DNA from: a bacterium
GTDB lineage: Bacteria; UBP18; UBA7526
Direction of reading: 5' to 3'
NCBI GenBank assembly: GCA_030619985.1
Contig: JAUXAI010000001.1
Coordinates: 9,272 to 73,271, forward strand
DNA: 64,000 nucleotides
The position numbers and the translations under genes were made by a program. Shown here piece after piece: positions 2,296-63,150 of the stretch (positions are counted from its first letter, which is position 1; every line of letters starts with the position of its first letter). Below the pieces are notes generated by a model that was given only the letters and a program-made list of their open reading frames with translations, ran no database searches and was not told the origin of the DNA.

Positions 2296-2410
2296 CAGAA
2301 TACAAGTTGACAAGGATACAAGAATACGAAAATAACTAAACTTGTTAACTTGTCAACTTATTAACTTGTTAACTTATCAACTAATCAGCTAATCAACTTG
2401 TCAACTAATA
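2296..2410. repeat. Inverted degenerate array (AAGTTGACAAGGATACAAG / CTTGTTAACTTGTCAACTT), no gene inside
   Basis: Begins straight after the uxs stop codon. A left arm with ACAAGTTGACAAGGATACAAG-like words is followed by about 20 unrelated bases and a longer right arm of repeated AACTTGTYAACT words in the opposite orientation. The same two arm types occur at 55784-55918 and around the gene at 59119-59493. It may form a long imperfect hairpin. Confidence 0.8.
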
Positions 2411-2428
2411 AGTATGGGGGTGGAAAGA

Positions 2429-2587
2429 ATGATTGACAAGGAATTGTTAGAGATTTTAGCTTGTCCAGTATGCAAAGCAAGTGTAAGATTAGAGCAGAAT
2501 AAAATTGTCTGTATCAAATGTGGCAGAAGGTATCCCATTCGGGACGGTATTCCCGTGATGCTGGAAAGCGAAGCAGAAAAAGAGTGA
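2429..2587 (+). CDS. Trm112-family small zinc-ribbon-like protein
   Basis: A 52-residue gene. It starts with the Trm112/YcaR-like pattern (MIDKELLEILACPVCK) and has two Cys pairs, CPVC near residue 12 and CIKC (CIKCGRRYPI) near residue 34, followed by Asp-Gly-Ile-Pro-Val-Met, the usual end of the family. Such proteins bind zinc and often activate partner methyltransferases; the methyltransferase at 15173 has the same module fused at its N-terminus. A weak ribosome site (GGGGGTGGAAAG) precedes ATG 2429, and the stop lies 4 bp before the flippase start, so the two are probably cotranscribed. Role here unknown. Confidence 0.8.
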   Translation: MIDKELLEILACPVCKASVRLEQNKIVCIKCGRRYPIRDGIPVMLESEAEKE

Positions 2588-2591
2588 CTGA

Positions 2592-3848
2592 ATGAAGTTT
2601 GTCGGCACCTTCGAGAGACAAGTCTCTTTCATATTCATTGCTCTCACATTGGGCAATATAGGTAACTTTATATTTCACATTTTTATGGGGCGTCATCTAC
2701 CAGAAACGGAATATGGAATCCTCTATAGATTGCTTGCCCTTTTAATGATCGTCTCTGTTCCCGCAACTACTATCCAGACAGTAATTACCAAGTATACTGC
2801 CCACTTCAAAGCCTTTAGCCAATATGGTAAGATCCGTTTTTTATTATTTAATCTTCTCAAGAGGCTCTTCTTCTACGGTTTCCTGGGCTCCCTTATATTT
2901 CTGACGGCAAGCGGTAGAATCGCTTCTTGGCAGCATTTTCCCTCTAGCAGGCCAGTTATGATCCTGGGAATACTTTTGTTGTTGAGTGTTATCGCCCCAG
3001 CAGCAGGAGGAATAATCCAGGGCCTGCAAAAATTTAATTACTTAGGATGGAGCACCATATTAGGCACCGCTTCCCGTTTAATATTTGGAATTATCTTTGT
3101 CTTCCTCGGTCTGGGAGTAAGTGGGGCTTTAGCTGCTTCTATTCTCGCCATGCTTGTCGGTATATGCATCCTCTTCTTTCCCCTGAAGTTTCTGTTTAAA
3201 TCAAAGGAAACAGAGGAGAGGGTAGACTTTAAAGAGATCTACAGATATTCTGCTCCGGTTATATTCAGCGTCCTCTTCTTCATGATTCTGACCAACATCG
3301 ATGCTCTATTAGTGGGAAACTTCTTTAGCCCGGTTAAAGCAGAAATTTATTCTGCTGCTGCCTTTGTGGGAAGGATGATATTATTTCTTCCCATGCCCAT
3401 TGTGATTGTCATGTTTCCTAAAGCCTCAGAACTATATGCCCAGAGAAGGGACTCTTCCCTTATCTTGAAAAAAAGTCTACTTTACGTTGGCCTCTTAGCG
3501 GGTGGAACAACCCTTGTTTGCCTTTTCTTTCCCTCTCTCATAATTAAGCTTATCTGGGCCGGTAAACATCAAGCAAGTACCCCATTAATTGGAAAGTTCG
3601 CCTTAGCCATGGCCCTATTTGGTCTAGTCAATATCCTTTTCTTCTATCAGCTCTCCATTCATAGGTTTAGATTTTTATATTTAGCAGGCGCTTTCACCCT
3701 TTTACAGATAATCGCTATCACTCTATTCCACAATACCCTCTCCCAGGTAGTCTGGATCTTGGTGGCCAATGGAGCGTTACTCTTTTTAATTAATCAATTT
3801 TTAGTTTGGACACCGAAAAAGATTTCTGAAAAAGTCAGAAATCTTTGA
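2592..3848 (+). CDS. Wzx-like polysaccharide flippase (MATE-type membrane protein)
   Basis: 418-residue integral membrane protein with roughly ten to twelve hydrophobic segments. The N-terminus reads FIFIALTLGNIGNFIFHIFM and the next stretch GRHLPETEYGILY has the Gly-Arg-x-Leu-x-x-x-x-Tyr-Gly pattern of O-antigen/teichoic acid flippases in the MATE fold. It would flip lipid-linked oligosaccharides across the inner membrane, consistent with the surrounding glycosyltransferases. The start at 2592 follows the Trm112-like gene almost directly. The last codons overlap an inverted repeat that can form a terminator-like hairpin. Confidence 0.8.
   Translation: MKFVGTFERQVSFIFIALTLGNIGNFIFHIFMGRHLPETEYGILYRLLALLMIVSVPATTIQTVITKYTAHFKAFSQYGKIRFLLFNLLKRLFFYGFLGSLIFLTASGRIASWQHFPSSRPVMILGILLLLSVIAPAAGGIIQGLQKFNYLGWSTILGTASRLIFGIIFVFLGLGVSGALAASILAMLVGICILFFPLKFLFKSKETEERVDFKEIYRYSAPVIFSVLFFMILTNIDALLVGNFFSPVKAEIYSAAAFVGRMILFLPMPIVIVMFPKASELYAQRRDSSLILKKSLLYVGLLAGGTTLVCLFFPSLIIKLIWAGKHQASTPLIGKFALAMALFGLVNILFFYQLSIHRFRFLYLAGAFTLLQIIAITLFHNTLSQVVWILVANGALLFLINQFLVWTPKKISEKVRNL
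3818..3846. terminator. Perfect 12-bp hairpin across the flippase stop codon
   Basis: AAAGATTTCTGA (3818-3829), a 5-nt loop, then TCAGAAATCTTT (3835-3846). The stem covers the last codons of the flippase and its TGA. There is no long T run after it, so an mRNA 3'-end stabiliser or a weak terminator is possible. Confidence 0.55.
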
Positions 3849-3868
3849 TTACAGTGATTAAAAAATAA

Positions 3869-3956
3869 GATTACACAGATTAGTTATTAACGACGAAATC
3901 TGTGTAATCATTCTCAAAATCTGTGTAGTCAGAGCCCTCTGAAGATTTTTTCAGAG
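3869..3956. repeat. Two further inverted repeats in the spacer before the next GT gene
   Basis: GATTACACAGATT (3869-3881) pairs with AATCTGTGTAATC (3897-3909) around a 15-nt loop; a partial third copy of the AATCTGTGTA word follows. CTCTGAA (3937-3943) then pairs with TTCAGAG (3950-3956). With the hairpin at 3818 this makes three consecutive stems in one 140-bp spacer. Confidence 0.7.
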
Positions 3957-3988
3957 ACCTCCGAAAAGAAGATTAGAAAGGATAGAGA

Positions 3989-5690: not shown

Positions 5691-5694
5691 TGAA

Positions 5695-5743: not shown

Positions 5744-7275
5744 TGAAGGTAATGATTTCTTATCCTCCCTTGAAAGGACCAGGATGTCCTTTATTGAGTC
5801 AGAACCGTCAGTTTCAATGGTTCCATAATCCTACTTATATCTATCCCGTAGTTCCGGCCTGGGCAGCGACGATGCTTAAGAACGCGGGTTATGAGGTCAT
5901 CTGGAACGACTGTATTGCAGAAAATTGGGACTATAAAAAGTTTTTGGATTTTGTCCAAAAGGAAAAGCCCGACCTCATTGCCTTTGAAACCAAAACCCCA
6001 GTAATAAAGCAGCACTGGCAAATCATCAACGATTTGAAAAGACCAATCACCAATCACCGATCACCGATCACCGTATTATTCGGTGATCACGTTACTGCTC
6101 TACCTGAGGAATCTTTCCACAATTCTCAGGTCGATTATGTTCTGACCGGTGGTGACTATGATTTCCTCCTCCTCAACCTCTGTAACTTTTTAGCTACCGA
6201 TAACCCGATTACCCGATCACCTGATCACCTGATAACCCGATTAGAACCCGGCATCTGGTATCGAGAAAGTGGCGAAATTAAGAATTCCGGTCTTTTCCGA
6301 TTAAATCATGATTTAGATTCTTTACCTTTCATTGATCGTGATTTAACTAAATGGAAACTCTATGCTTATGAAAATGGAAATTATAAATTAACCCCCGGGA
6401 CCTATATTATGGCGGGAAGAGATTGTTGGTGGCGAAAGGATGGTGGCTGTACCTTTTGCTCCTGGACCGCCCTTTATCCTACCTGGAGGGTGAGGTCGGT
6501 AGAGAATGTCTTGGATGAGATGGGCGAGCTTATTGAGAGATATAAGATTCGGGAGATAATGGATGATACCGGTACTTTTCCGGCTGGGGAGTGGCTGCGA
6601 GAGTTCTGTCAGGGGATGATTAAAAGAGGTTATAATGAAAGGATTAATTTCGATTGCAATCTGCGTTTTGGAGCATTAACCAGTAAAGATTATAAACTGA
6701 TGGCCAAGGCGGGATTCAGATTCCTCCTTTATGGGCTTGAATCGGCGAGCCAAGAAACAATTAATAGATTGAATAAGGAGATAAAGATTGCCGCCATTGA
6801 GGAGGAATTAAGAGAGGTCAAAAGGGCAAATAGAGAGATTAAAGGACATCTCGAACCCCATGTCACCTGTATGGTTGGCTATCCCTGGGAGACAAAAGAG
6901 GAGGCAGAGAAGACGATTCAGATGACAAAGGATTTGTTCAGTAAAGGCTTGATAGACACCCTTCAGGCAACCATTATGATTCCCTACCCAGGAACGGCCC
7001 TCTTTAAGGAATGCAGGAAGAATGGATGGTTAAAGAACGAGGATTGGGATGGGTTTGATATGAGTCAGCCGGTCATGAAGACTCCTCTGAAGGATGAGGA
7101 AGTAATGCGACTCACTCAGGGCATTTATAAATCCTTTATTACCCCACGCTTCTTATTTAGGAAAATAATATCTATCAGGAATATTGATGGCTTAAAGTTT
7201 TTCTGGCGTGCTGGAAAGGCAGTTTTGGGCCATCTCCGGGACTTTATGAAAAAACAATCTAAATTTTTGACATAG
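5743..7275 (+). CDS. Cobalamin-binding-type radical SAM protein with unusual Cys spacing
   Basis: About 510 residues: an N-terminal B12-binding-like Rossmann region (MISYPPLKGPG start, Gly-Asp-His near 115), then a radical SAM TIM-barrel core. The cluster motif reads DCWWRKDGGCTFCSW, a Cys-x7-Cys-x2-Cys instead of Cys-x3-Cys-x2-Cys (about residues 228, 236, 239). Later blocks LYGLESASQETINRLNK and MVGYPWETKEEAEKT are standard for the class. GTG 5743 (product MKVMISYPP) is preferred to the ATG at 5722, which lies in a repeat loop. Two repeat-derived inserts (near residues 102-118 and 152-166) add length in frame. Likely a methylase or other radical tailoring enzyme; substrate unknown. Confidence 0.75.
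   Translation: MKVMISYPPLKGPGCPLLSQNRQFQWFHNPTYIYPVVPAWAATMLKNAGYEVIWNDCIAENWDYKKFLDFVQKEKPDLIAFETKTPVIKQHWQIINDLKRPITNHRSPITVLFGDHVTALPEESFHNSQVDYVLTGGDYDFLLLNLCNFLATDNPITRSPDHLITRLEPGIWYRESGEIKNSGLFRLNHDLDSLPFIDRDLTKWKLYAYENGNYKLTPGTYIMAGRDCWWRKDGGCTFCSWTALYPTWRVRSVENVLDEMGELIERYKIREIMDDTGTFPAGEWLREFCQGMIKRGYNERINFDCNLRFGALTSKDYKLMAKAGFRFLLYGLESASQETINRLNKEIKIAAIEEELREVKRANREIKGHLEPHVTCMVGYPWETKEEAEKTIQMTKDLFSKGLIDTLQATIMIPYPGTALFKECRKNGWLKNEDWDGFDMSQPVMKTPLKDEEVMRLTQGIYKSFITPRFLFRKIISIRNIDGLKFFWRAGKAVLGHLRDFMKKQSKFLT
6042..6090. repeat. ATCACCG array with inverted end inside a radical SAM gene
   Basis: Repeated ATCACC(A/G) heptamers end in a perfect inverted repeat GATCACCG (6066-6073), loop TATTATT, CGGTGATC (6081-6088). 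It is translated in frame. The same CGATCAC word makes up the array at 50347-50374. Confidence 0.8.
6198..6244. repeat. Second heptamer array in the same radical SAM gene
   Basis: A run of CCGATAA, CCCGATTA, CCCGATCA, CCTGATCA, CCTGATAA and CCCGATTA words, about 47 bp, translated as a Asn-Pro-Ile-Thr-Arg-rich segment. It resembles the array 150 bp upstream, so two expansions have occurred in one gene. Confidence 0.75.
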
Positions 7276-7340: not shown

Positions 7341-7420
7341 AGGACGGGAAATATACTCCATACCTAGACGCAGATATAATATCATCAGAAAATGTTATAT
7401 CTGAATGCGTAGAAAAATGT
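7341..7420 (+). pseudogene. 80-bp fragment of a family 2 glycosyltransferase
   Basis: Aligns without gaps to 9261-9340 inside the next glycosyltransferase (about 74 percent identical by eye) and still reads Leu-Asp-Ala-Asp-Ile-Ile...Val-Ile-Ser-Glu-Cys-Val-Glu-Lys-Cys. Similarity stops at 7420, right after the Cys codon, where the upstream region of the ATPase gene begins. No other part of the glycosyltransferase is visible between 7276 and 7341. Confidence 0.75.
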
Positions 7421-7430
7421 GGAGAGTAAG

Positions 7431-8798
7431 ATGGATATAAAAGCACTAATTAAAGAAGGCGAGTCTGAAGCCTTAGAATTTAAAGAATCTACAGGAGAGT
7501 GGAAAGAGATAGTTTCAACTATCTCTGCTTTTGCTAATACTAAAGGTGGTAGGATAATTATTGGAGTTTCTAAATCGGGTAAACTATTTGGTGCAGAAAT
7601 TGGCAAAGATACTATTGAGCGTCTAAGCAATCAAATCTCTCAGAATACCGACCCCAAAGTTCATCCCCGCATTACTACAGAGAAGATAAAAGGCAAATCC
7701 ATAATCATTATTGAAGTAAAAGAGTCATCCGACCATTTGATTCTTGCATTTGGTAGGCCATTCAAAAGGGTAGGCAAATCAACTGTCAAAATGTCCAAGG
7801 ATGAGTATGAAAAGTTGATTTTAGAAAAGCATAGAGAGAAATTATATTTTGATTCTCAAATTTGTAAAGGTGCGAAGCTAAAAGATATCAATAAGGAAAG
7901 ATTATTATGGTTTGTTAAGGAAGCAAGGGTTCATAGGGGTTTGGATGTAGAAGATATGCTTCCCACAGAAGAAATTTTAGAAAGATTAAAACTTTTAAAG
8001 GAAAGGAAGTTAACCAATGCCGCTATATTGTTATTTGGAAAAAATCCTCAGAAGTTTTTTCTTCAGACGATAATAAAAGCAATCAGATTCAAGGGGACTG
8101 ATGTAACGGAAGATATGCTAGACTTTAAGACCATAGAAGGAGATATCCTGATTCAGCTTAAGAGGGCTGAAGACTTTATCTTTGAACACATTCCGAAACA
8201 GGCATGGATAGAAGAAGGTAAACTTCAAAGACAGGAAAAATGGTTATACCCGCCTAAAGCGATAAGGGAGGCTTTGGCAAACGCATTAGCGCATAGAGAT
8301 TATGAGACAACATCAAGTGTTCAGGTTAGAATTTTTGATGATAGGTTAGAAATATGGAATCCAGGAGGTTTGCCATCAGGACTTACAGTGGAAAAACTAA
8401 AGAGAAAACATACTTCCATCCCTCGCAATCCTCTTATTGCGAGAGCCTTCTTTTGGGTGAAATACGTAGAAGAAGTTGGCACAGGAACAAATAAGATTAT
8501 CAAATGGTGTAAAGAGTGGGAGTTACCTGAGCCAGAATTTGAAGATACAGGAACAAGTTTTGTATTAACTTTCCGAAAATTCTATGTGAGTGAAAGTTTA
8601 TTAGAAGTATTGAATGAACGTCAGAAAAAGGCTGTAGGGTATCTTAGGGAAAAAGGCAAAATAACAAATAGAGAGTATCAAAAACTTTGCGCTGGTGTAA
8701 ATAGAGAAACCATAAGAAAAGACCTAAATAATTTAATTAATAAAAAAATTATTATTAGAAAAGGAGAAAAAAAAGGGGTTTATTACGAACTTATATGA
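7431..8798 (+). CDS. Schlafen/AlbA_2-type ATP-binding protein with HTH (COG2865-like regulator)
   Basis: 455 residues. An N-terminal AlbA_2 (Slfn) domain with Glu-Phe-Lys-Glu (LEFKES) and FANTKGGRIIIGV, a central GHKL-like ATPase part (PPKAIREALANALAHRDY, DDRLEIWNPGGLP, FFWVKYVEEVGTGTNKI), and a C-terminal winged helix (TNREYQKLCAGVNRETIRKDL). ATG 7431 with GGAGAG upstream is preferred to GTG 7419. Members are DNA- or RNA-associated regulators, some linked to defence or mobile DNA. It is AT-rich and unrelated to its glycan neighbours, and sits between a glycosyltransferase fragment and a glycosyltransferase, so it looks inserted. Exact role unknown. Confidence 0.8.
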   Translation: MDIKALIKEGESEALEFKESTGEWKEIVSTISAFANTKGGRIIIGVSKSGKLFGAEIGKDTIERLSNQISQNTDPKVHPRITTEKIKGKSIIIIEVKESSDHLILAFGRPFKRVGKSTVKMSKDEYEKLILEKHREKLYFDSQICKGAKLKDINKERLLWFVKEARVHRGLDVEDMLPTEEILERLKLLKERKLTNAAILLFGKNPQKFFLQTIIKAIRFKGTDVTEDMLDFKTIEGDILIQLKRAEDFIFEHIPKQAWIEEGKLQRQEKWLYPPKAIREALANALAHRDYETTSSVQVRIFDDRLEIWNPGGLPSGLTVEKLKRKHTSIPRNPLIARAFFWVKYVEEVGTGTNKIIKWCKEWELPEPEFEDTGTSFVLTFRKFYVSESLLEVLNERQKKAVGYLREKGKITNREYQKLCAGVNRETIRKDLNNLINKKIIIRKGEKKGVYYELI

Positions 8799-8799
8799 T

Positions 8800-8832
8800 A
8801 TGCCAACTTTATGCCAACTTTATGCCAACTTT
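8800..8832. repeat. ATGCCAACTTT x3 direct repeat
   Basis: Three exact tandem copies of an 11-bp unit lie immediately after the stop codon of the ATPase gene, as the other intergenic arrays do. No inverted partner is visible nearby. Confidence 0.85.
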
Positions 8833-8936
8833 AAAGATAGTTGTAAAGGAGGGAAGGGTAAGGGAAAATGGTAAACAGAGCATTAAACGGGTGCGAGTTC
8901 TCCGCTATCGTGGGGAAGCCGCCAGATAATAATTAT

Positions 8937-50328: not shown

Positions 50329-50374
50329 GAGGAATAGACAGACAGACCGATCACCGATCACCGATCACCGATCA
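50296..50374. repeat. GGTCATCA x4 and CCGATCA x4 arrays at the split point
   Basis: Octamer GGTCATCA at 50296, 50304, 50312 and (last base variant) 50320; heptamer CCGATCA at 50347, 50354, 50361 and 50368. The reverse complement of the first unit (TGATGACC) resembles the second (GATCACC), so they are rough inverted arms. Adding one octamer (+8) would join the two coding halves. Confidence 0.85.
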
Positions 50375-50410
50375 CGGAAAGGGATAAGCTTCTTTCTCTT
50401 TGCTGGGATT

Positions 50411-51094: not shown

Positions 51095-51290
51095 AAAGCG
51101 AGGACGCAAGATAATCGGCACGCGAATTATCGCGAATTAAAAGCAGTTACCAAGCTATCAAGTGATTGAGCTATCGAATTGGATGGTTGGATGGTTAGCC
51201 TGTTAACCAGTTTGCTGGTTAGCCAGTTTGCCAGTTGAATTTGGGGGAGAGCAGAGAAAAGAGCTACCAAGCTATCGAGCTATCAAGTAA
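51072..51290. repeat. Spacer filled with ACGCGAAT and CCAGTTTGC / CAAGCTATC arrays
   Basis: ACGCGAAT units start over the stop codon of the split gene (51072 on). A 35-bp word at 51084-51118 is identical to 52295-52329 on the other side of the lipoprotein gene. From about 51150 the words change to CAAGCTATC, GGTTGGATGG and CCAGTTTGC, with a second CAAGCTATCGAGCTATC run near 51270. Confidence 0.75.
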
Positions 51291-51374: not shown

Positions 51375-52208
51375 ATGAGAAGGACATTAGGTTTTGTTTT
51401 AATCTTGGGTGTTTTAGTGGTAAGTGGATGCGTGAGAAGGGAACTTCTTGTTCTCCCTGAGGCACCAGAGGTAGGGGTGTTAAAGCCGGTTACCAGGCCA
51501 GGGACAGCGGCCTTCAGGGGAGGGGAAAAACTAACCTTCTTAGCTAAGTTCCGGTTTATTCCTGCTGGAGAGGTGACTATGGAAGTAAGGGAGATGAGAT
51601 ATAGGGGCCATGAGGTCTACAGTCCTTTAATAACTATGAAGGCGGCTAAGTTATTTTCTTTTTTCTGTCCAGCAGAGGTAAATATCAGGTCCTATCTCGA
51701 TGCCCGTACCTTAGATAGTCTACGTTATGAGGAGCATACCATAATGGGTCGCCATACCTATGAACGCTTGACGGTCTATGACCAGAGGAATCGATTGGCG
51801 ACGTATGATGCGCCAGTCTATGATAGAATGGGCAAGACAATCAGGATTTATAAGAAGAAGGTAAGGATTCCACCCCATACCCAGGATATGTTATCTGCCT
51901 TCTATTATATTCGAACCCAGGAATTAAAAGAGGGAAAGATTCTAACCATCAATGCCAATGAGCGACACAAGAATTATAGAGTGAAGATAAAGGTCTTGAG
52001 GAAAGAGAAGGTTACTGTTCCAGCAGGAACCTTCCTCACCTGGGTGATAGAGCCGATTTCCATACAGAGATTGGATAAAGAAAAAGAAGGGGAAAAAGGA
52101 ACAGGTCTTATCTATCTCAGCGCAGATGAGAGGAAGCTACCAGTCTTAATGAAAGCCAAGACAAAATTAGGCTCGGTTACTGTTCAACTAATAGACGTTA
52201 AACTTTAA
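51375..52208 (+). CDS. Outer-envelope lipoprotein, DUF3108-like
   Basis: 277 residues. Signal peptide with lipobox Val-Val-Ser-Gly-Cys (Cys19), so lipid-anchored. The mature part opens with FRGGEKLTFLAKFRFIPAGEVTMEV, the DUF3108 hallmark, and has YEEHTIMGRHTYERLTVYD and TVPAGTFLTWVIEP. DUF3108 proteins are periplasmic and of unknown biochemical role. Own promoter upstream; bounded on both sides by the ACGCGAAT arrays with a shared 35-bp word. Confidence 0.8.
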   Translation: MRRTLGFVLILGVLVVSGCVRRELLVLPEAPEVGVLKPVTRPGTAAFRGGEKLTFLAKFRFIPAGEVTMEVREMRYRGHEVYSPLITMKAAKLFSFFCPAEVNIRSYLDARTLDSLRYEEHTIMGRHTYERLTVYDQRNRLATYDAPVYDRMGKTIRIYKKKVRIPPHTQDMLSAFYYIRTQELKEGKILTINANERHKNYRVKIKVLRKEKVTVPAGTFLTWVIEPISIQRLDKEKEGEKGTGLIYLSADERKLPVLMKAKTKLGSVTVQLIDVKL

Positions 52209-52346
52209 CGCGAATAATCGCGAACTGCAAAGCAAAGAACGAAACAAAGTAAACAGGACGCGAATTAACGCGAATAAAAGAGGGACGCGAATAGACGCGA
52301 ACTGAAAAGCGAGGACGCAAGATAATCGGGACGCGAATCAACGCGA
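52207..52346. repeat. ACGCGAAT array between the lipoprotein and GxxExxY genes
   Basis: Begins on the lipoprotein stop codon. About eight ACGCGAAT/TCGCGAACT-like units with GAACGAAAC filler; contains the 35-bp word also found at 51084. A single inverted unit (ATTCGCGTTT) marks the end of the following gene at 52732-52741. Confidence 0.8.
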
Positions 52347-52742
52347 ATGAAAACAGAAACAAAAATATTATATAAGGAGTTAGCTTACCAAATAGTAGGA
52401 GCTTTTTACGAAGTATATAATACTCTGGGGCCAGGTTTTAAAGAGTCCATTTACCATAACGCTTTAGCCATTGAATTTACTTTACGGAAAATATCCTTTG
52501 AAACTAATAAGAGACTCACCATCAAGTATAAAAAGCAAAAGGTTGGAATTTATGAACCAGACTTCGTTATAGATAATAAGATTCTTGTTGAAATCAAAGC
52601 TGTTCCCAGGATGCCCAGAGTTTACGAAAAGCAGTTATATTACTATCTGAAGGGTACAGAATATAAATTGGGTTACTTAGTAAATTTTGGAGCTGATAAA
52701 TTAGAAATCAAGCGTAGAATCTACGAAAGGATTCGCGTTTGA
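52347..52742 (+). CDS. GxxExxY family protein
   Basis: 131 residues. The naming motif is present as Gly30-Phe-Lys-Glu33-Ser-Ile-Tyr36 after NTLGPG, with the later VGIYEPDFVIDNKILVEIKA that has the Glu/Asp...Glu-x-Lys look of PDDEXK nucleases. These proteins occur in many copies in environmental genomes and have no proven function. ATG 52347 follows directly on the repeat array, with no clear ribosome site; the last codons (Ile-Arg-Val) are coded by an inverted repeat unit. It is unrelated to its neighbours and looks like a repeat-borne orphan gene. Confidence 0.82.
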   Translation: MKTETKILYKELAYQIVGAFYEVYNTLGPGFKESIYHNALAIEFTLRKISFETNKRLTIKYKKQKVGIYEPDFVIDNKILVEIKAVPRMPRVYEKQLYYYLKGTEYKLGYLVNFGADKLEIKRRIYERIRV

Positions 52743-53183: not shown

Positions 53184-54255
53184 GGCGGTCATTATTGCTG
53201 GGGGGAGGGGAGAGAGGTTTTGGCCTAAGAGTAGGATTAGAACACCGAAGCAACTCCTTCCCATAGCCTCTAAAAAGAGTATGATCTATGAGACGGTGAA
53301 GAGGATAAGCCCTTTGGTGACATCAAAGGATATTCTGATTATTGCCAGAAGAGGTTTGGGGGCAAGAATCAAGAAAGATCTTCCTAAGATCCCCACTAAG
53401 AATATTATCTCCGAGCCCTTTGGGCGGGATACTGCAGCAGCAGTCGGCTTAGGAGCAATATTAGCGGAGAAGAAAGACCCAGATAGCGTTATGGTTGTCT
53501 TACCCGCAGATCATGTAATTGGTGAGCCGAAGAAGTTTCTAAAAACTTTAAGAGTGGCCATCAAGGCTGCCCGAGATACAGATAATTTAGTGACTATGGG
53601 AATCAAACCTAACAGGCCAGAGACGGGGTATGGGTATATAGAAATTGGTTCGCCAGTTCGCCAGTTCGCCAGTTCGCCAGTTTATGAGGTGAAGAGGTTT
53701 GCAGAAAAGCCGGATAGGAAAAAAGCATTAAAGTTTATGAAGAGCGGGAGGTATCTCTGGAATAGTGGAATGTTTATCTGGAGAACCTCTGTTATCCTGA
53801 AAGCGATGAGAAAACATATGCCCCAACTATATAGAGGCCTTTTGGAGATTCAGGAGGCCTTGGGTACTTCTCAAGAAAAGAAAGCGATTGAAAAGGTCTA
53901 CAAAAAGTTGGACAAAATATCCATAGATTATGGTATAATGGAGAAGGCAAAAAATACATTGGTGGTGAAGGCAGATTATCTCTGGGATGATGTGGGGAAC
54001 TGGCAGGCCCTGGAAAGAATCTCAGTTAAAGATAAAGAGAGGAATATTACCAAGGGAGAAGTCTCTTCTTTAGATACGAGAGATTCCATTATTCTCTGTG
54101 ACAAAGGAATGGTAGGAACAATCGGTATAAAAGATTTAATCATCATCTCAACAGAAGATGCTACTTTAATCTGCCCTAAAGATAGGGCCCAGGAAGTAAA
54201 GGAACTGGTCCACAAGCTTGGTAAGAATAAGAAATTAAAGAAATACATTAAGTAA
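53176..54255 (+). CDS. manC: Mannose-1-phosphate guanylyltransferase
   Basis: 359 residues; single-domain GDP-mannose pyrophosphorylase (no isomerase half). IIAGGRGERFWPKSR nucleotide motif, TPKQLLPI, EPFGRDTAAA, VLPADHVI, ETGYGYIE, VKRFAEKPD, YLWNSGMF, DDVGNW. It supplies GDP-mannose for the mannosyl- or glucosylglycerate and glycan steps nearby. After GYGYIEIG an 11-residue insert is coded by four GTTCGCCA octamers (53648-53679), in frame as sequenced. Followed by a terminator-like hairpin and the mutase gene that makes its substrate. Confidence 0.93.
   Translation: MVKAVIIAGGRGERFWPKSRIRTPKQLLPIASKKSMIYETVKRISPLVTSKDILIIARRGLGARIKKDLPKIPTKNIISEPFGRDTAAAVGLGAILAEKKDPDSVMVVLPADHVIGEPKKFLKTLRVAIKAARDTDNLVTMGIKPNRPETGYGYIEIGSPVRQFASSPVYEVKRFAEKPDRKKALKFMKSGRYLWNSGMFIWRTSVILKAMRKHMPQLYRGLLEIQEALGTSQEKKAIEKVYKKLDKISIDYGIMEKAKNTLVVKADYLWDDVGNWQALERISVKDKERNITKGEVSSLDTRDSIILCDKGMVGTIGIKDLIIISTEDATLICPKDRAQEVKELVHKLGKNKKLKKYIK
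53648..53679 (+). repeat. GTTCGCCA x4 octamer repeat inside manC
   Basis: Four exact consecutive 8-bp units (32 bp). Loss or gain of one unit would frameshift manC in the middle of the catalytic domain. Confidence 0.9.
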
Positions 54256-54256
54256 G

Positions 54257-54308
54257 GTTCACGGTTAACGGTTTACGGTTAACCGTAAAAAAACGGTAAA
54301 CGGTAAAC
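54257..54308. terminator. Inverted GGTTTACGG array after manC
   Basis: GTTTACGGTTAACCGT (54271-54286), short A-rich loop, ACGGTAAACGGTAAAC (54293-54308): nearly complementary 16-bp arms. It starts within a few bases of the manC stop codon. Terminator or RNA-stabilising role possible. GAGCGAAGCGAGGAG follows before the next start. Confidence 0.6.
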
Positions 54309-54368
54309 AGCGACAAACAAGGTGAGGAGCGGGTAAACTGTAAACTATCCGAGCGAAGCGAGGAGAGA

Positions 54369-55781
54369 ATGGAGAGAATAAAGTTTGGTACTGATGGCTG
54401 GAGAGGAGTGATCTCAAAGGATTTTACCTTTGAGAATGTCAAGATCGTCTCCCAGGCCATGGCCGATTATCTAAAGAAAGAAAAGATTGGGGAGAGGGAG
54501 ATCATCATAGGATATGATGCTCGTTTTCTCTCTAAGGAGTATGCCCAGCTTGTGGCCTCTGTCTTAGCCGGGAATGGAATAAGGGCTATCTTGAGCGACA
54601 GAATCCAGCCCGTTCCTTGTGTCTGTTTCGCCATAAAGGATAGGGAGGCTGCTGGGGGGATAATGATTACTGCCAGCCATAACCCCTTTCAATATAATGG
54701 AATAAAGTTCAAAGGAGAGTATGCGGGAAGCGCAGATGATACAACAACTAAGAAGATCGAGAATTTCTTGTATAAGAATAAACCGAAAGAAATAGATTTT
54801 GAGGCGGAAGAAAAGAAAGAACTCATCCGGACAATAGATCTTACTCCGCCCTATCTCCAGTTTCTAAAATCCTTCGTCAATTTGGAATTAATAAAAGAAG
54901 CGTCGCTTAAAATAATTGTTGATTCCATGTATGGTGCAGGAAAGGATTATACTGCCCAGGTCTTAAAAGAAGGGAAGTGTCAGGTCATCACTATTCGGGG
55001 CGAGGAGAACCCCTCTTTCAGGGGAGTGAACCCCGAGCCCATTGCTCAGAACTTAGGCGCCTTAATAGATAAGATAAAGGAAGAGAAGGCAGATTTAGGA
55101 CTGGCCACAGATGGGGATGGGGATCGGTTAGGAGTCATGGATAGTGAAGGCAACTTTGTCAATCCCCATCAGGTTCTTTCATTACTTACCCTTCATTTGA
55201 TTGAGAGCAGGGGATGGTCGGGAGGAATAGTGAAGACCATATCTACCACCTCCTTGTTGAATAAAATAGCAGAAAAGTATAAGAGAAAAATCTATAAGAC
55301 CCCGGTAGGCTTTAAGTATATCTGTGAGTTGATGCTAAAGAAGGATATCCTGATTGGAGGAGAAGAATCAGGAGGGATCGGAGTCAAGAATCATGTTCCG
55401 GATAGGGATGGTCTATTATCTGGTCTACTTCTTCTTGAGATGTTAGCCTTGAAGAAGAAACCCTTATCCCAGATTCAGGAGGAGATGAGAAAAGAGTTTG
55501 GCACCTATCTTTATCAAAGGATTGATAGTGAGTACCCTCTGGACAAAAGAGACATCTTGATTTCTACCTTAAAGAAAAATCCACCAAAAGAATTGGCGGA
55601 TATTGAGGTAAGAAAAATAGATGCTTCAGATGGAATAAAGTTTATTCTGGAGGATAATAGCTGGCTCTTGTTTCGCACCTCGGGGACAGAACCCATCATT
55701 AGAATCTATGCTGAATCAGACGAAGAAGGAAAGTTAGAAAAGATTATGGAAGCAGGAAAGGAGTTGGCCTTCTCTATCTAA
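54369..55781 (+). CDS. manB: Phosphomannomutase/phosphoglucomutase
   Basis: 470-residue alpha-D-phosphohexomutase. IKFGTDGWRG start, catalytic Ser in TASHNPFQYNG, metal loop ATDGDGDR, sugar-binding GGEESGG, and phosphate-binding RTSGTEP near the end; all four domains intact. It interconverts hexose 6- and 1-phosphates; being next to manC it probably makes mannose-1-phosphate, glucose use also possible. GAGGAGAG precedes ATG 54369. Confidence 0.9.
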   Translation: MERIKFGTDGWRGVISKDFTFENVKIVSQAMADYLKKEKIGEREIIIGYDARFLSKEYAQLVASVLAGNGIRAILSDRIQPVPCVCFAIKDREAAGGIMITASHNPFQYNGIKFKGEYAGSADDTTTKKIENFLYKNKPKEIDFEAEEKKELIRTIDLTPPYLQFLKSFVNLELIKEASLKIIVDSMYGAGKDYTAQVLKEGKCQVITIRGEENPSFRGVNPEPIAQNLGALIDKIKEEKADLGLATDGDGDRLGVMDSEGNFVNPHQVLSLLTLHLIESRGWSGGIVKTISTTSLLNKIAEKYKRKIYKTPVGFKYICELMLKKDILIGGEESGGIGVKNHVPDRDGLLSGLLLLEMLALKKKPLSQIQEEMRKEFGTYLYQRIDSEYPLDKRDILISTLKKNPPKELADIEVRKIDASDGIKFILEDNSWLLFRTSGTEPIIRIYAESDEEGKLEKIMEAGKELAFSI

Positions 55782-55783: not shown

Positions 55784-55918
55784 TTAACAAGGATACAAGT
55801 TAACAAGAAACTTATCAACTTATTTCTGAGTGGTAACGAAGAAACAAGGTTCTGCGAAGCAGGTTCTTATTAACTTGTCAACTTGTCAACTAATCAACTT
55901 GTCAACTTTTTAACTCAC
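55784..55918. repeat. Inverted AACTTGT array holding a 38-bp palindrome
   Basis: Left arm of GTTAACAAGGATACAAG words starts straight after the mutase stop; right arm of AACTTGTCAACT words ends near 55915. Between them (55834-55871) is a palindromic segment TTCTGCGAAGCAGGTTCTTA-like whose minus strand matches the first 40 bp of the insertion in the HEPN gene (974-1010). The arms match those at 2296 and 59064. Confidence 0.8.
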
Positions 55919-58240: not shown

Positions 58241-58262
58241 CTTTTCTCTATCTAAATTCTGA

Positions 58263-58373: not shown

Positions 58374-58403
58374 TTTTTCCCTCCTCTCCTTAAATTTAGT
58401 TTA

Positions 58404-58433: not shown

Positions 58434-58490
58434 GCCTTTTTTTGATTTTTATTGAATTTATTGATAGAATGGAAAAGGAAAGAGAATGAG

Positions 58491-59066
58491 ATGACCAAGA
58501 TCATCCTGGTGCGCCATGGGGAGACGGCCTGGACTCCAGTAAATAGGATTCAAGGTTGGCTGGATATAGAGTTAAATGAGCGAGGGCTAAGACAGGCAAA
58601 AAGAATTGCAAGAGAATTAAAGAGAAAGAAGATAGACGCCATCTATTCTAGTGAACTCTCTCGGGCTTATGAGACAGCAAAGATTATTGCCAAACCACAT
58701 AAATTAAGAGTAAAGAAGGATATTAATCTCAATGAGCTTAACCAGGGAAAGTGGCAAGGGCTTCTGGTAAAAGAGGCCAGAAGAAAGTATAAGGAACTTT
58801 ACCGAAGATGGGAAGAAGAACCCTTAAGCGTCAGGCCTCCTGGAGGGGAGAGCATCCTGGACCTTTACGAAAGGGCAATCCATATTTTAAGAGAGATTAC
58901 CAAGAAATATCCCAAAGGGAAGGTAGTCATCGTGGGACATAAGGTGATAAATACGGTATTAAAATGCTATTTGTTGGGAATAAATCTCTCTAATGTCTGG
59001 AAACTACTGCCTAAGGAAGCAAGCTGGGAGGAAATCAAAATTCCCCAATCAAGAGTCAGAAAATGA
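58491..59066 (+). CDS. Histidine phosphatase family protein, possible glucosyl-3-phosphoglycerate phosphatase
   Basis: 191 residues from ATG 58491, AAGGA upstream; a longer TTG frame from 58452 is less likely. LVRHGETAW with the catalytic His, SELSRAYETA, GESILDLYERA and VGHKVINT with the second His: complete phosphoglycerate-mutase-like phosphatase. Mycobacterial GpgP belongs to this superfamily, and the gene follows gpgS, so dephosphorylation of glucosyl-3-phosphoglycerate is a reasonable guess; alpha-ribazole phosphatase and other roles are alternatives. Confidence 0.8.
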   Translation: MTKIILVRHGETAWTPVNRIQGWLDIELNERGLRQAKRIARELKRKKIDAIYSSELSRAYETAKIIAKPHKLRVKKDINLNELNQGKWQGLLVKEARRKYKELYRRWEEEPLSVRPPGGESILDLYERAIHILREITKKYPKGKVVIVGHKVINTVLKCYLLGINLSNVWKLLPKEASWEEIKIPQSRVRK

Positions 59067-59108
59067 GTTAACAAGTATACAAGTTAACAAGGATACAAGT
59101 TGACAAGG
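59064..59108. repeat. Left repeat arm (GTTAACAAG / GATACAAG) before a four-helix-bundle gene
   Basis: Overlaps the phosphatase stop codon and consists of GTTAACAAGTATACAA, GTTAACAAGGATACAA and GTTGACAAGG. Its inverted partner is at 59492-59530. Confidence 0.85.
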
Positions 59109-59118
59109 AAGGTGGAAG

Positions 59119-59493
59119 ATGGAAAGAGGTTTTGAAGGTTTAAAGGTTTGGCAATTGGGAAGGAAATTCCGCAAAAAGATTTATGAGATAAGTAGAAAGT
59201 TCCCAAAGGAAGAGATATATTGCCTAGTTCAGCAAATTCGTAAAGCAGCAATATCCATAACTGCCAATATCACAGAAGGTCATGGTAGGTATCATTATCA
59301 GGAAAATATTCAGTTTTGTCGGGTTTCAAGAGGCTCGATAAATGAAGTCTTAGATCATCTATATACTGCTATAGACGAAAAATATATTGTTGAAAAAGAG
59401 TTCCAGCAATTATACTCTCAGGGCAGAGAAGTAGAAAAAGTGCTCAACGGTTACATCGGTTACCTTCACAAAAGACTCAGCGAGAAAAGTTAA
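59119..59493 (+). CDS. Four-helix-bundle protein (S23 / rRNA intervening-sequence type)
   Basis: 124 residues, all-helical. Typical pattern: FEGLKVWQLGRKFRKKIYEIS, then FPKEEIYCLVQQIRKAAISITANITEGHGR and the C-terminal helix with EVEKVLNGYIGYLHKRL. The family was first found inside 23S rRNA intervening sequences; an Avd-like relative binds RNA in retroelements. Here no rRNA or reverse transcriptase lies nearby; the gene is bounded by inverted repeat arms that are also found elsewhere without it. GGAAGGTGGAAG precedes the start. Function unknown. Confidence 0.87.
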   Translation: MERGFEGLKVWQLGRKFRKKIYEISRKFPKEEIYCLVQQIRKAAISITANITEGHGRYHYQENIQFCRVSRGSINEVLDHLYTAIDEKYIVEKEFQQLYSQGREVEKVLNGYIGYLHKRLSEKS

Positions 59494-59530
59494 ACTTGTC
59501 AACTAATCAACTTGTTAACTTATCAACTAT
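59492..59530. repeat. Right repeat arm (AACTTGTCAACT) after the four-helix-bundle gene
   Basis: Begins on the stop codon of the gene; AACTTGTCAACTAATCAACTT words, inverted relative to 59064-59108 and the same as the right arms at 2341 and 55870. Confidence 0.85.
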
Positions 59531-59546
59531 CTGAAAGGAGTTTATC

Positions 59547-60767
59547 ATGTCTAAACCAAGAATTGCTATCGTTCATTATTCCTCTCCTCCAGTAATCGGA
59601 GGGGTGGAGTTCATCTTGGAGGCTCATGCCAGAGAGATGCTCAAGCATGGCTATAAGGTGAAGGTTGTTGCAGGGAGAGGGGAGAAATTTCATAAGAAGA
59701 TCCCGATTGTTATTATTCCCGAGGCGGATTCTCTCTCAAAGACGAATAAGAGAATAGATGCGGAACTTGAGAAGAATCTTGTGAGTGCTAAATTTCATCA
59801 ATTAACAGATAGAATCTACGGGAAACTAACTCGAGAGTTTAAAAATGTCGATCTTGTCATCATCCATAATGTCCTGACCATGCACTTCAACCTCCCCCTT
59901 ACTGCTGCTTTAGAGAGATATATTAGAGAACATAAGAAGAAAAAGTACATCGCCTGGTGCCACGATGCCACCTTCAAGGACCCGGTCTATAAGAAGAAGG
60001 CCAAGAATAAATACCCCTGGAATGTGATCTCCAAGCCCATTCCAAAAGTAAGGTATGTTGCCATCTCTTGTGAGCGCCAGAAGCAGCTCTCTCACCTCTT
60101 CCGAGTCAATCCCAAGAAGATAACCGTGGTTCCTGACGGAATCGATCATAAAAGCTTCTTAGATTTAAATGGGGATGCCCTGGAAGTCTTCAAGAGGTTT
60201 AATCTCTTTAATCAGGATCTGGTTATGCTTCTGCCCACCAGGATTGTGAAAAGAAAAAATCTGGAACTGGCAATAAAGATCACTAAGGAATTGAATAAGA
60301 TACTCAAGGCTGTTTTAATTATTACTGGGCCTCCTGATCCCCATAATATCGACTCTATGAGGTATTATCGCTCTCTGAAAGACTTAAGGAATAAATCCCG
60401 GATGAAGAGGAAGGTCATCTTTCTCTATGAGGAGGGAATAAAGGTAGGATATTCTATGCTGAGGAGCCTCTATCTATTATGTGATATGCTCCTATTTCCC
60501 AGTGCCCAGGAAGGCTTCGGCATCCCCCTATTGGAATCTGGATTGGTTAACCTTCCCATCGCTTGTGCCAACATCCCTCCCTTGAAGGAAGTGGGAGAGA
60601 AAGACGTTCACTATCTTGACTTAAAGAAGAACCCCAGAGAACTTGCCTCAGGGATAATTAAGTATTACCAAAGACAGCCCACTATCCCTATGTTCAAGAA
60701 GGTATTGAGGAACTATACCTGGGAATCCATCTTCACGCAAAAGATAGAACCATTGTTAAAGGGGTGA
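59547..60767 (+). CDS. GT-B glycosyltransferase, family 4
   Basis: 406 residues. RIAIVHYSSPPVIGGVEFILEAHAREM at the acceptor side (GGVE turn), VPDGIDHKSFLDL, LLPTRIVKRKNLELAIKI, and FPSAQEGFGIPLLESGLVNLPIA for the donor-binding Glu-x7-Glu (Glu-Gly-Phe-Gly...Glu-Ser). GAAAGGAG upstream. It may extend the glucosylglycerate product (for example with mannose from GDP-mannose) or act on a polysaccharide; context allows both. Its stop lies in the next repeat arm. Confidence 0.85.
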   Translation: MSKPRIAIVHYSSPPVIGGVEFILEAHAREMLKHGYKVKVVAGRGEKFHKKIPIVIIPEADSLSKTNKRIDAELEKNLVSAKFHQLTDRIYGKLTREFKNVDLVIIHNVLTMHFNLPLTAALERYIREHKKKKYIAWCHDATFKDPVYKKKAKNKYPWNVISKPIPKVRYVAISCERQKQLSHLFRVNPKKITVVPDGIDHKSFLDLNGDALEVFKRFNLFNQDLVMLLPTRIVKRKNLELAIKITKELNKILKAVLIITGPPDPHNIDSMRYYRSLKDLRNKSRMKRKVIFLYEEGIKVGYSMLRSLYLLCDMLLFPSAQEGFGIPLLESGLVNLPIACANIPPLKEVGEKDVHYLDLKKNPRELASGIIKYYQRQPTIPMFKKVLRNYTWESIFTQKIEPLLKG

Positions 60768-60799
60768 CAGGGGTGGCAAGGGTGACAGGGGTAACAGGG
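60764..60799. repeat. Left repeat arm (GGGGTGACAGG) before a second four-helix-bundle gene
   Basis: GGGGTGACA, GGGGTGGCAA, GGGTGACA, GGGGTAACA units, overlapping the stop of the glycosyltransferase. Inverted partner at 61169-61212. Confidence 0.8.
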
Positions 60800-61168
60800 A
60801 TGAAAAGTAAAAGAGAGCCCGGCTATAAGAGATTAATTGTCTGGCAGAATACCTATAAACTGCGCAAATTAATCTATAAGATAACCGCTCACTTCCCAAG
60901 AAGTGAAATGCGACGGGTCAGTCATATGAGAGATAGTGCCCGCTCAGCAAAGCAGAATATCCAAGAGGGTTATAAGCGTGCCTCTCGTGGAATATATATT
61001 CACTTTTTAACCATTTCTCAGGGCTCTTTAGGAGAATTGAAGGGCGATGTAGAAGATTCTTTTGAAGATGGATTGATGAGTAAGGAAGAATATGAAGAAG
61101 TAGATGCTTTAATCTGCAAAACCGATTATTTATTTACTCGCCTGATCAATTCATTAAGGAAGAAATAA
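60800..61168 (+). CDS. Four-helix-bundle protein, second copy
   Basis: 122 residues from ATG 60800, just past the repeat; a GTG at 60764 would translate the array and is less likely. YKRLIVWQNTYKLRKLIYKITAHFP, MRDSARSAKQNIQEGYKR, and helix 4 DALICKTDYLFTRLINSLRKK follow the same plan as the gene at 59119 but with low sequence similarity, so they are old paralogues. It is also enclosed by inverted arms, of different sequence. Function unknown; RNA binding is the family expectation. Confidence 0.82.
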   Translation: MKSKREPGYKRLIVWQNTYKLRKLIYKITAHFPRSEMRRVSHMRDSARSAKQNIQEGYKRASRGIYIHFLTISQGSLGELKGDVEDSFEDGLMSKEEYEEVDALICKTDYLFTRLINSLRKK

Positions 61169-61212
61169 ACCCTTGTACCCCTTATATCCCTTGTTCCCCC
61201 CGTAACCCCTGT
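61169..61212. repeat. Right repeat arm (CCCTTGTTCCCC / GTAACCCCTG)
   Basis: Begins just after the stop codon of the gene: ACCCTTGTACCCC, TTATATCCCTTGTTCCCC, GTAACCCCTG. Inverted relative to 60764-60799. The lepA start follows 12 bp later. Confidence 0.8.
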
Positions 61213-61223
61213 GGAGTACTAGA

Positions 61224-62999
61224 ATGACTACCGAGAGGATTAGAAATTTCTCTATTATTGCCCATATCGACCATGGAAAGAGCACCTTGGCAGATAGACT
61301 ATTGGAGTATACCAAGACCCTTCCTTCCCGAAAGATGAGGGAGCAGGTATTGGATGAGATGGAACTTGAGAGGGAGAGGGGGATTACCATAAAGGCCAAA
61401 GCGGTGAGACTGAGGTACAAAGATTATATATTAAATCTCATAGATACTCCGGGCCATGTGGACTTCTCCTATGAGGTCTCCAGGTCTCTTGCTGCCTGTG
61501 AGGGAGTCTTATTGATCATCGATGCCAGCCAGGGGGTTCAGGCCCAGACCTTAGCCAATGCCTACTTAGCAAGGGAAGCCAACCTCGCCATCATCCCCAT
61601 TATAAATAAGATAGACCTTCCCAATGCCCGGCCAGAAGAGACAGAGAAACAGATAAAAGATGTCCTGGGATTAGAGGACCCCATCTTTACCAGTGCCAAG
61701 AAGGGAATGGGAACAGAGGATGTCCTGGAAGCAATAGTTGAGAGGATCCCCCCACCAAAAGGGGAGATCAATAAGCCCCTTCAGGCCTTGATCTTCGACT
61801 CTATCTATAATCCCTATCAGGGGGTAGTGGTCTATATCCGGGTTGTTCAGGGTTCCATTAAACCAAGAGATAGGATTAGGCTTATGGGAAGGGGCAGGGA
61901 TTTTGAAGTGAATGAAGTGGGGATCTTCTCTCCAGAGATGAGAAAGGTGGAGGGGCTCTCTCCAGGTGAGGTGGGCTACCTAATGGCGAATATAAAGAAC
62001 CTTCAAGATGCCAAGGTGGGGGATACTATTACTGGTGCCCAAAATCCGGCCCAGAAGTCTCTTCCCGGATATAAGGAGGTGAAGCCCTTTGTCTTCGCCA
62101 GCCTCTATCCTGTAAGAAGCGAGGATTTTGGATCACTGAAGGAGGCTTTGGAGAAGCTGAAACTGAATGACGCTTCCTTTAGTTATATAGAGGAAAGCTC
62201 CCCAGCCTTGGGCCCTGGTTTCAGATGCGGATTCTTAGGCCTCTTACATATGGAGATCGTCCAAGAGAGATTGGAGAGGGAGTATGACCTGGATCTGATA
62301 ACTACGGCACCCAGCGTGGTCTACAGAGTAATCACCAAAGAGGGTGAAATTAAAAGGGTAGAGAACCCTTCTAGACTCCCTTCTCCCGCTGAGATTAAAG
62401 AGATTCAGGAGCCCTATATTAAGGCGATCATCATTACTCCCGCCGAATACTTAGGACCCATTATGCAGTTAGTTCAGGGAAGAAGGGGAGTATATAGAGA
62501 TACCAGGTATCTGGCCCCCAATACCGCCTCTTTGACCTATGAATTCCCCCTATCTGAGGTGATCCTCGACTTCTATGATAGGCTGAAGTCTGTCTCCCGA
62601 GGTTATGCCTCCTTTGACTATGAGCATATCGGTTATCGAAAGACGGATTCGGTAAAGGTCGATGTCCTCTTAAATAATGAGAAGGTGGAAGGATTATCCT
62701 TCATTACCCATAAGGAAAAGGCCTATCATAGGGCAAGCGAGTTGGTAGCAAGATTAAAGGAGGTCATTCCTCAGCACCTCTTTCCTGTTGCCATACAGGG
62801 GGCGATAGGGAAGAAAATCATCGCCCGGGAGACAGTAAAAGCTTTGAGAAAGGATGTCACCGCTCCCTTATACGGAGGGGATGTCACCCGGAAGAGGAAG
62901 CTTTTGGAGAAGCAGAAGAGGGGTAAGAAGAGAATGAAGAGAATTGGAAAAGTCTCTCTTCCCCAAGAAGCTTTCTTAAGCATTCTGAAGGTGGATTAG
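61224..62999 (+). CDS. lepA: Elongation factor 4 (translational GTPase LepA)
   Basis: 591 residues, the normal LepA length. G1 [28 protein letters not shown]3 [21 protein letters not shown] split as DTPGHVDF, G4 NKIDLP, and the LepA-specific C-terminal region [16 protein letters not shown]...[32 protein letters not shown]. It back-translocates stalled ribosomes. GGAG lies before ATG 61224. The stop codon is part of a GGATTAG repeat unit. Together with hrcA it marks a conserved chromosomal segment. Confidence 0.96.
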
Positions 63000-63000
63000 G

Positions 63001-63150
63001 AAATTAGGTGGACTAGGATATTAGGTGGATTAGATTTAGTATACTGGTTAAATTAGGATACTAGTTGGATTACACCCCTATTCCAACTAATTCACCAATT
63101 TCCTAATATACTAAACCAATCCAACTATTCCACCAAATCCAACTATTTCA
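63001..63150. repeat. Long imperfect palindrome (TTAGGTGGATTAG arms) between lepA and hrcA
   Basis: Left arm 63027-63068 and right arm 63083-63122 pair over about 40 bp with a 14-nt loop; outer units (63001-63026 and 63123-63150) extend the complementarity less exactly. It starts on the lepA stop codon and ends about 9 bp before the hrcA -35 box, so it could end lepA transcription. Confidence 0.8.

Follow-up and report, generated by a model that had tools for sequence, protein, structure and literature searches.

Short tandem repeats, often arranged as two arms in opposite orientation, lie between and within the protein genes of a 64,000-nucleotide (nt) stretch of a bacterial draft genome (GTDB lineage Bacteria; UBP18; UBA7526; assembly GCA_030619985.1, contig JAUXAI010000001.1, positions 9,272 to 73,271), hereafter referred to as the window. 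The initial annotation described them as arrays anchored at stop codons, each locus with a unit of its own, and suggested either that a local word is copied close to the 3′ end of genes or that the elements form a class selected for structure. We found small open reading frames (ORFs) between some of the arms. The reading that we favour, with a probability of roughly three in four, is that most arrays are arms, or what is left of arms, belonging to small mobile elements of the intervening sequence (IVS) class that reside outside ribosomal RNA (rRNA), together with ORF-less derivatives.

Arms and genes in the window

Arrays were called with Tandem Repeats Finder (TRF), and inverted arms were assessed by comparing the arm match with that of random window pairs (Table 1). 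Each of two array pairs, 59066/59493 and 60760/61169, brackets a single element, with a gene for a 23S rRNA intervening-sequence protein (IVP/S23; PF05635, TIGR02436) between the arms; a GxxExxY gene lies between a long left array and a minimal right arm. TRF recovered nearly all the arrays described initially, and the arm at 61169 is visible by eye. Inverted arms are strong (P of 0.001 or less) at 2296, 55784, 59064/59492, 60764/61169 and 63001 and weak at 54257 (P = 0.017) and 52207 (P = 0.046), and in this test none was found at 51072 or at 8800, where TATGCCAACTT occurs in direct orientation only. With five clear and two weak cases among nine sites, the earlier statement that most arrays have inverted arms is acceptable. 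The ORFs between the arms, the in-gene arrays at 6042, 6197 and 53648, and the pair 50295/50346 had been missed. Rfam gave no match above the gathering score in the window and no rRNA, and the elements sit between protein genes, not in a 23S or 16S rRNA gene.

The genome holds 10 IVP and 4 GxxExxY genes. At 12 of these 14, the two flanks are complementary, the match of the upstream one to the downstream one in reverse complement reaching at least the 95th percentile of mismatched pairs, and each pair has a word of its own (for example, AAAATCAAAAAT, CGAAATCC, GATTACAGTGAT and AACGGATAACGC).

Table 1 Repeat arrays, arms and associated genes in the window (coordinates are window positions)
Feature	Position	Strand	TRF array	Further basis
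ORF-less element, AACTTGTC word, short loop	2296–2412	+	2339–2406	Inverted arms, P 0.001
Two arrays (ACCGATC, CCGATAAC) within B12-binding/radical SAM ORF	6042–6241	+	Called	Profile search
TATGCCAACTT ×3.2, direct repeats only	8799–8833	+	8799–8833	No inverted arm
AGGTCATC and ACCGATC arrays across stop of ORF 49222–50328	50295–50376	+	Called	Weak inverted arms, P 0.017
ORF-less ACGCGAAT array, word of the GxxExxY element	51072–51140	+		Sequence; no right arm found
GTTAGCCA and AAGCTATCGAG arrays, after the 51072 array	51145–51290	+	51194–51236	Sequence
Long left array, ACGCGAAT words	52208–52353	+	52208–52353	Starts at stop of ORF 51375–52208
GxxExxY gene (PD-(D/E)XK nuclease superfamily)	52347–52742	+		TIGR04256 E 6.1e-38; PF13366 E 6e-37
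Minimal right arm, GGATTCGCGTTTGA, one copy	52728–52741	+		Inverted-arm test weak, P 0.046
GTTCGCCA array within mannose-1-phosphate guanylyltransferase-like ORF	53648–53682	+	Called	
ORF-less element, GGTTTACGG word (a family with 16 arrays in this genome)	54257–54350	+	54256–54283	Weak inverted arms, P 0.017
ORF-less element, AACTTGTC word	55784–55915	+	55872–55908	Inverted-arm test; fold z −3.3
Left arm, AGTTAACAAGTATACAAGTTAACAAGGATACAAGTTGACAAG	59066–59109	+	59066–59109	Starts at TGA of ORF 58452–59066; inverted match to 59493–59528
IVP/S23 four-helix-bundle protein gene inside element	59119–59493	+		PF05635 E 2.8e-34; TIGR02436 E 6.7e-32
Right arm, AACTTGTCAACTAATCAACTTGTTAACTTATCAACT	59493–59530	+	59493–59528	Inverted-arm test
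Left arm, GGGGTGACA words	60760–60803	+	60760–60803	TGA of ORF 59547–60767 within first unit
Second IVP/S23 gene	60800–61168	+		PF05635 E 1.9e-20; TIGR02436 E 2.1e-18; listed ORF start 60764 within arm
Right arm, CCCTTGTACCCCTTATATCCC...CCCCTGT	61167–61213	+		Inverted-arm test; RNA fold of 60755–61215, z −4.8
ORF-less hairpin element (TTAGGTGGA / TCCACCTAA) at lepA end	62986–63155	+	62989–63033, 63118–63155	Fold z −3.9

Elements with IVP and GxxExxY genes across bacteria

Arm-bearing elements with IVP or GxxExxY genes are widespread in bacteria. We surveyed 80 named IVP loci from GTDB species representatives (78 of them scored for arms), which were found with a three-row alignment, so that the sample is biased towards one IVP branch; they come from Bacteroidota, Acidobacteriota, Planctomycetota, Chloroflexota, Nitrospirota, Omnitrophota, Elusimicrobiota, spirochaetes, cyanobacteria, Patescibacteria and others. 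Inverted arms exceed the 95th percentile at 55 of the 78 loci, as compared with 4 of 78 in the direct-orientation control, and consist of tandem 7–8-bp words such as AGTTGACG, GGGACTAA, AGTGGTT, TAGGCAT and TAGCGTT. Seven IVP loci with distant neighbours were considered as possible residents of rRNA; this was rejected, as Rfam found no rRNA there and most lie inside protein genes. The inverted-arm test is passed by 16 of 24 GxxExxY loci; in direct orientation, 10 of the 24 pass as well, since at some loci a whole hairpin is present in two direct copies, one on either side. Strong direct-repeat flanks occur at the GxxExxY genes L012, L258 and L255, and at L012 they are two whole-hairpin copies, resembling a composite transposon.

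Across 13 genomes, the density of arrays follows the combined density of IVP and GxxExxY genes (Spearman rho 0.93), and 144 kb from four genomes with neither gene contains no array. One surveyed genome (G013) has 19 IVP-like matches, many of them back-to-back divergent pairs a few hundred bases apart, unlike arm-flanked units.

Insertion and movement as a unit

Two loci (L006 and L007) share 450 bp, including both arms, between unrelated flanks, which shows that the arms travel with the ORF as a unit. Among 238 spacers common to this genome and a congener (G002), 134 are empty in both, 23 hold an array only here, 32 only in the congener and 49 in both; 55 of the 238 are thus occupied in one genome only, and 26 of the 49 occupied in both hold different words. 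The spacer of the 55784 element likewise has a different word in G002. The spacer before lepA, which holds an IVP element here, is empty in the congener G001 (L123); in G002 it is occupied by an ORF-less GGTTTACGG element and in G005 by a short AAGTAAG array. The site of the hairpin element at the end of lepA is empty in both G001 and G005.

Plasmids of cyanobacteria provide base-exact comparisons. In the cleanest case, site 1, Trichormus variabilis plasmid C and Microchaete NIES-3275 are 98.1% identical over the shared parts: the empty sequence reads AAAAAGTAATTAAC, and the filled one reads AAAAAGTAAT, then the element AAATCAGAATTCAGAAGTCAG...IVP...CTCCTGAGTTCTTCTTT, and then GTAATTAAC. This is a 428-bp insertion with a 5-bp repeat, GTAAT, that covers the stop codon of the upstream gene. 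A second plasmid site has a 506-bp insert at a TAATG stop–start overlap, with a 3-bp repeat, and a third (6b) is suggestive on inspection by eye, with TTCT or TTCTA at both ends.

IVP genes also lie between cas6 and cas4 in Anabaena sp. 90 and between cas10 and cmr3 in Picosynechococcus PCC 7003 (L310 and L325), and the cas10–cmr3 spacer of PCC 7002 lacks an IVP gene. These genes look like insertions of the arm–ORF–arm kind, not CRISPR functions, which offers an alternative account of the IVP genes reported earlier in cas loci (PMC3936711). At one plasmid site, two different ORF-less hairpins (L316 and L317) are found where other plasmids hold an IVP element, making it a repeated target.

Another reading is that the arrays are REP/RAYT-like, miniature inverted-repeat transposable element (MITE)-like or ERIC/NEMIS-like elements mobilized in trans by a host transposase. 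MITEs, ERIC, NEMIS and repetitive extragenic palindromic (REP) sequences are small intergenic hairpin elements, and the elements described here share with them small size, intergenic location, palindromic form, multiple copies, empty sites and, at one site, a 5-bp duplication. However, each of those families has a fixed sequence, and to our knowledge none carries an IVP or GxxExxY ORF or arms of tandem words. Here, by contrast, the ends are variable tandem words instead of fixed terminal inverted repeats, the target duplication is not constant (5 bp at site 1, 0–3 bp or unclear elsewhere), and the ORF between the arms encodes IVP or GxxExxY instead of a transposase. Moreover, neither Y1 transposase (PF01797) nor reverse transcriptase (PF00078) was found in six genomes of this family (G000–G005), each incomplete, in which other transposase families were not searched. 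Retro-mobility by a host reverse transcriptase and mobility by a Y1 transposase were rejected on this basis, and we consider mobilization in trans improbable.

Orientation and elements inside genes

In tandem gene contexts, 53 IVP genes are oriented with their neighbours and 2 against them, and the upstream neighbour is co-directional with the IVP gene in 68 of 79 cases. As an inverted-repeat element has no DNA orientation preference of its own, the ratio of 53:2 points to selection or insertion acting on the transcript.

Six of the 80 IVP elements reside inside protein genes (L177, L178, L180, L183, L187 and L232), the hosts being two Treponema leucyl-tRNA synthetases (editing domain), a CoA-enzyme activase and three restriction–modification or DNA-methylase proteins; not all of these cases are independent, because L178 and L180 share one host gene. 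In the six IVP genes, the host frame (the IVP +2 frame) contains no stop codon, as compared with 17.7 expected from synonymous shuffling, and among 73 other IVP genes just one is open in this frame. The right arm of L183 seems to contain a shift of the host frame. Judging from these reading frames, translation of the host proteins apparently continues through the element, an argument against RNA splicing at such sites.

A shared vocabulary of repeat words

The repeat units are not private to each locus, as had been supposed, but form a shared vocabulary. In the window, AACTTGTC is common to 2296, 55784 and 59064/59492, and ACGCGAAT to 51072 and 52207. Of the 330 array regions in 712 kb of the 1.25-Mb draft genome, 225 recur elsewhere in the genome as a copy of 45 bp or more, and word families reach 63, 36, 22 and 16 array members. 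Among IVP elements at unlinked sites with unlike flanks, 7 of 10 pairs whose proteins are 75% or more identical have matching words, as compared with only 1–3% of pairs below 60%. The word is thus a property of the element lineage, and one that turns over fast.

These recurrences bear on the copying of local words near gene ends proposed in the initial annotation, here taken as a templated process that works in both orientations. Words do differ between species at the same site, as in the 26 shared spacers mentioned above and in the mannose-1-phosphate guanylyltransferase (ManC)-like gene discussed below, and the sole hint of local copying is a single-arm array in a relative (L106), in which AAGTAAGAAGTA adjoins, and resembles, its own stop-proximal sequence, AAGTAA. 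However, words recur at many unlinked and unrelated loci and follow the element ORF, which already largely refutes such a process, and the six family genomes yielded no reverse transcriptase. At lepA, where copying from the gene's own end (GGTGGATTAG) was considered, the word TTAGGTGGA is found again in other arrays; it is therefore not a copy of that end, and the candidate was rejected. We regard templated copying as hardly tenable.

In the ManC-like gene, the array at 53648–53682 is in frame, and arrays of similar length with different words occupy the same codons in G002 and G003; it is as if the array had been rewritten in place, three species having three words. A change of word at a fixed site is what slippage and homogenization would give, and on a rival reading the arrays are ordinary long heptameric simple sequence repeats (SSRs) made by replication slippage, perhaps with a regulatory or G-quadruplex role, that have no mobile history. 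Heptamers are indeed over-represented among bacterial SSRs, and those of Xanthomonas and Nostoc were reported as unlinked to mobile elements (PMC4692102). Slippage, however, makes no complementary array 400 bp away across an ORF, and it leaves unexplained the shared families with conserved interiors, the clean inserts of 0.4–0.5 kb and the co-orientation. This explanation is already hard to hold for the ORF-bearing pairs, and we judge it unlikely for the arrays as a whole.

Placement of arrays relative to genes

The array statistics cover 712 kb from this genome and 513 kb from the congener, with genes defined by simple ORF calls and a Markov shuffle as background. The 330 arrays of this genome (464 per Mb) compare with 23 rows (about 32 per Mb) in the shuffle, an approximately 15-fold excess, and spacers, which make up 13% of its DNA, hold about 60% of its arrays. 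Rates per tandem, convergent and divergent spacer are 0.28, 0.31 and 0.28, respectively, in this genome and 0.37, 0.51 and 0.32 in G002. In tandem spacers, a cluster starts within 10 bp of a stop codon in 32% (this genome) and 40% (G002) of cases, nearly equal to the 36% and 30% obtained by random placement in the same short spacers. The association with stop codons is thus mostly a product of short spacers, and the stop codon as a specific anchor was rejected, divergent spacers, in which no gene ends, being occupied as often as the others. What survives of the proposed anchoring is an asymmetry: arrays overlap a stop codon (46 of 136 here, 38 of 117 in G002) two to three times as often as a start codon (19 of 136 and 14 of 117), and the insertion resolved best, that at plasmid site 1, falls on a stop codon. 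The initial observation therefore holds for the arrays and, mostly, for their inverted arms, but not for private units or specific stop anchoring.

Several findings weigh against the mobile-element reading. Clear arms are absent from about a quarter of the surveyed IVP loci, and some matches in G013 are paired IVP-like ORFs of another sort. The density correlation draws on few lineages, with six genomes from one family and most samples of 12–40 kb. A clear target duplication is present at one site only, the remaining empty sites being too diverged or without a repeat. A strong inverted partner no more than 400 bp away accompanies only 10–14% of the arrays overall (1–3% expected), and many would therefore be single-arm or decayed, their kinship with the ORF-bearing elements being one that we infer. 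Finally, spacers with arrays fold no better than those without (median z of −2.02 and −2.01, respectively); structure alone is therefore not their distinguishing mark, and folding was rejected as such a feature. The suggestion of elements selected for structure comes near the mark, in that insertable elements with complementary arms exist, although the folding of their spacers does not bear it out; the copying of local words, the other interpretation offered initially, finds no support.

The same folding comparison bears on whether the arms could be transcription terminators or RNase-resistant 3′ ends selected for folding. The arms could fold and often lie 3′ of genes, but they lack terminator anatomy and also occur in divergent spacers and inside genes, and this explanation appears very improbable.

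Relation to known elements

Ralph and McClelland reportedly described, in 1993, a 23S rRNA IVS with an S23/IVP ORF in Leptospira. The 23S IVS of Coxiella, 428 nt long, has a stem of 28 bp and contains an S23 ORF. Two or three tandem GACAGAT heptamers and a degenerate copy stand before this ORF, strains differ in the number of repeats, and the first repeat is where RNase III cleaves (PMC4990558). IVSs have been termed possible mobile elements since 1990–1993 (as cited in PMC4990558). The elements described here resemble 23S rRNA IVSs in their S23/IVP ORF (PF05635), complementary ends, heptamers adjoining the ORF (as in Coxiella), length of about 0.43 kb, sporadic presence and ORF decay. They differ in residing in the spacers of protein genes and inside such genes, in their many copies per genome and many different words, and in the alternative GxxExxY ORF. 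As they share the ORF and arms but not the rRNA location, we class them as an IVS variant and not as 23S IVSs. RNase III cleavage has been shown for rRNA IVSs only (PMC4990558); an RNase III gene is present here too, and by analogy the enzyme may also cut elements outside rRNA. Avd of diversity-generating retroelements is a distant IVP homologue (bAvd model, E = 5e-5; PMC10053308), but the reverse transcriptase that would mark such a retroelement, a group II intron or a retron was not found in this family's six genomes.

Heptamer arrays near stop codons have been reported before, and the layout noted in the initial annotation was therefore partly known. The STRR repeats of cyanobacteria are comparable intergenic tandem heptamers. 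TAACTGA direct repeats occur in Beggiatoaceae, cyanobacteria and Bacteroidetes (PMC4679880, whose text has no S23 or helix-bundle wording). Both kinds resemble our arrays as intergenic tandem heptamers that hold stop codons and for which horizontal transfer is suspected, but they are mostly direct repeats upstream of start codons, with no ORF cassette described. GGGAATC in Xanthomonas and GGGGA(C/T)T in Nostoc lie between aligned ORFs, at most 50 bp from stop codons or overlapping them, with some inverted pairs, and were judged to be G-quadruplex SSRs with one word per genome; that paper is silent on S23, intervening sequences and helix bundles (PMC4692102). They are alike in their 7-bp units, aligned-ORF spacers, stop proximity and occasional inverted pairs. 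Among open-licence PMC papers, we found none that joins IVP or GxxExxY with heptamer arms outside rRNA, and the elements seem to have been described so far only piecemeal.

Proposed mechanism and implications

The IVS-class reading builds on the arm–ORF–arm anatomy, the co-orientation, the empty sites, the movement as a unit, the open host frame and the recurrence of word families. A complete unit spans about 0.4–0.6 kb and comprises a left arm of tandem 7–8-bp words, one small ORF (encoding an IVP/S23 four-helix-bundle protein or a GxxExxY PD-(D/E)XK protein) and a right arm in which the left one returns in reverse complement. Versions without an ORF may have arisen from complete units by deletion or may be non-autonomous siblings, and as remnants they would spread or decay. 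The units enter DNA by clean insertion, and the IVP or GxxExxY protein may take part in mobility or bind the arms. They would persist where harm is small: between a stop codon and the ribosome-binding site of the next gene, in sense orientation; inside genes with the host frame open through the element; and, according to the literature, in 23S rRNA loops. Selection may be the cause of this siting. Once transcribed, the arms could form a hairpin that RNase III cuts, as in the rRNA members, so that the damage would probably be small. Slippage and turnover would alter the arrays, slippage homogenizing the words as perhaps at the ManC-like gene, and words would therefore diverge fast between species. 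For the joint change of word in two distant arms, candidate processes are the nesting of one element in another and arm-to-arm template switching.

It is possible, although we hold this more general proposal only tentatively, that bacteria harbour a very widespread class of mobile elements for which IVP and GxxExxY proteins are the driving agents and whose ends are defined by structure and not by sequence, with terminal arms of rewritable tandem words that change fast yet remain mutually complementary at every locus, and which live in rRNA loops, at stop codons and, by read-through with one frame coding and another open, in essential proteins. The mobile-element reading would offer one origin for heptamer repeats, for the scattered multi-copy proteins annotated as 'four helix bundle' or 'GxxExxY' and for IVP genes in cas operons. 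It predicts RNase III cuts in mRNAs and reading-frame-neutral inserts in proteins such as leucyl-tRNA synthetase, and the old question of rRNA IVS mobility becomes testable at base-exact empty sites on plasmids of culturable cyanobacteria.

Additional observations

The TATGCCAACTT array abuts the stop codon of a gene (7419–8798) for a protein with Schlafen/AlbA_2, RecG-C-like and DeoR helix-turn-helix regions. The 3′ ends of elements (54350–54370 in the window and many spacers of G000 and G002) often provide a Shine–Dalgarno-like GAGCGAAGCGAGG directly before the next start codon.

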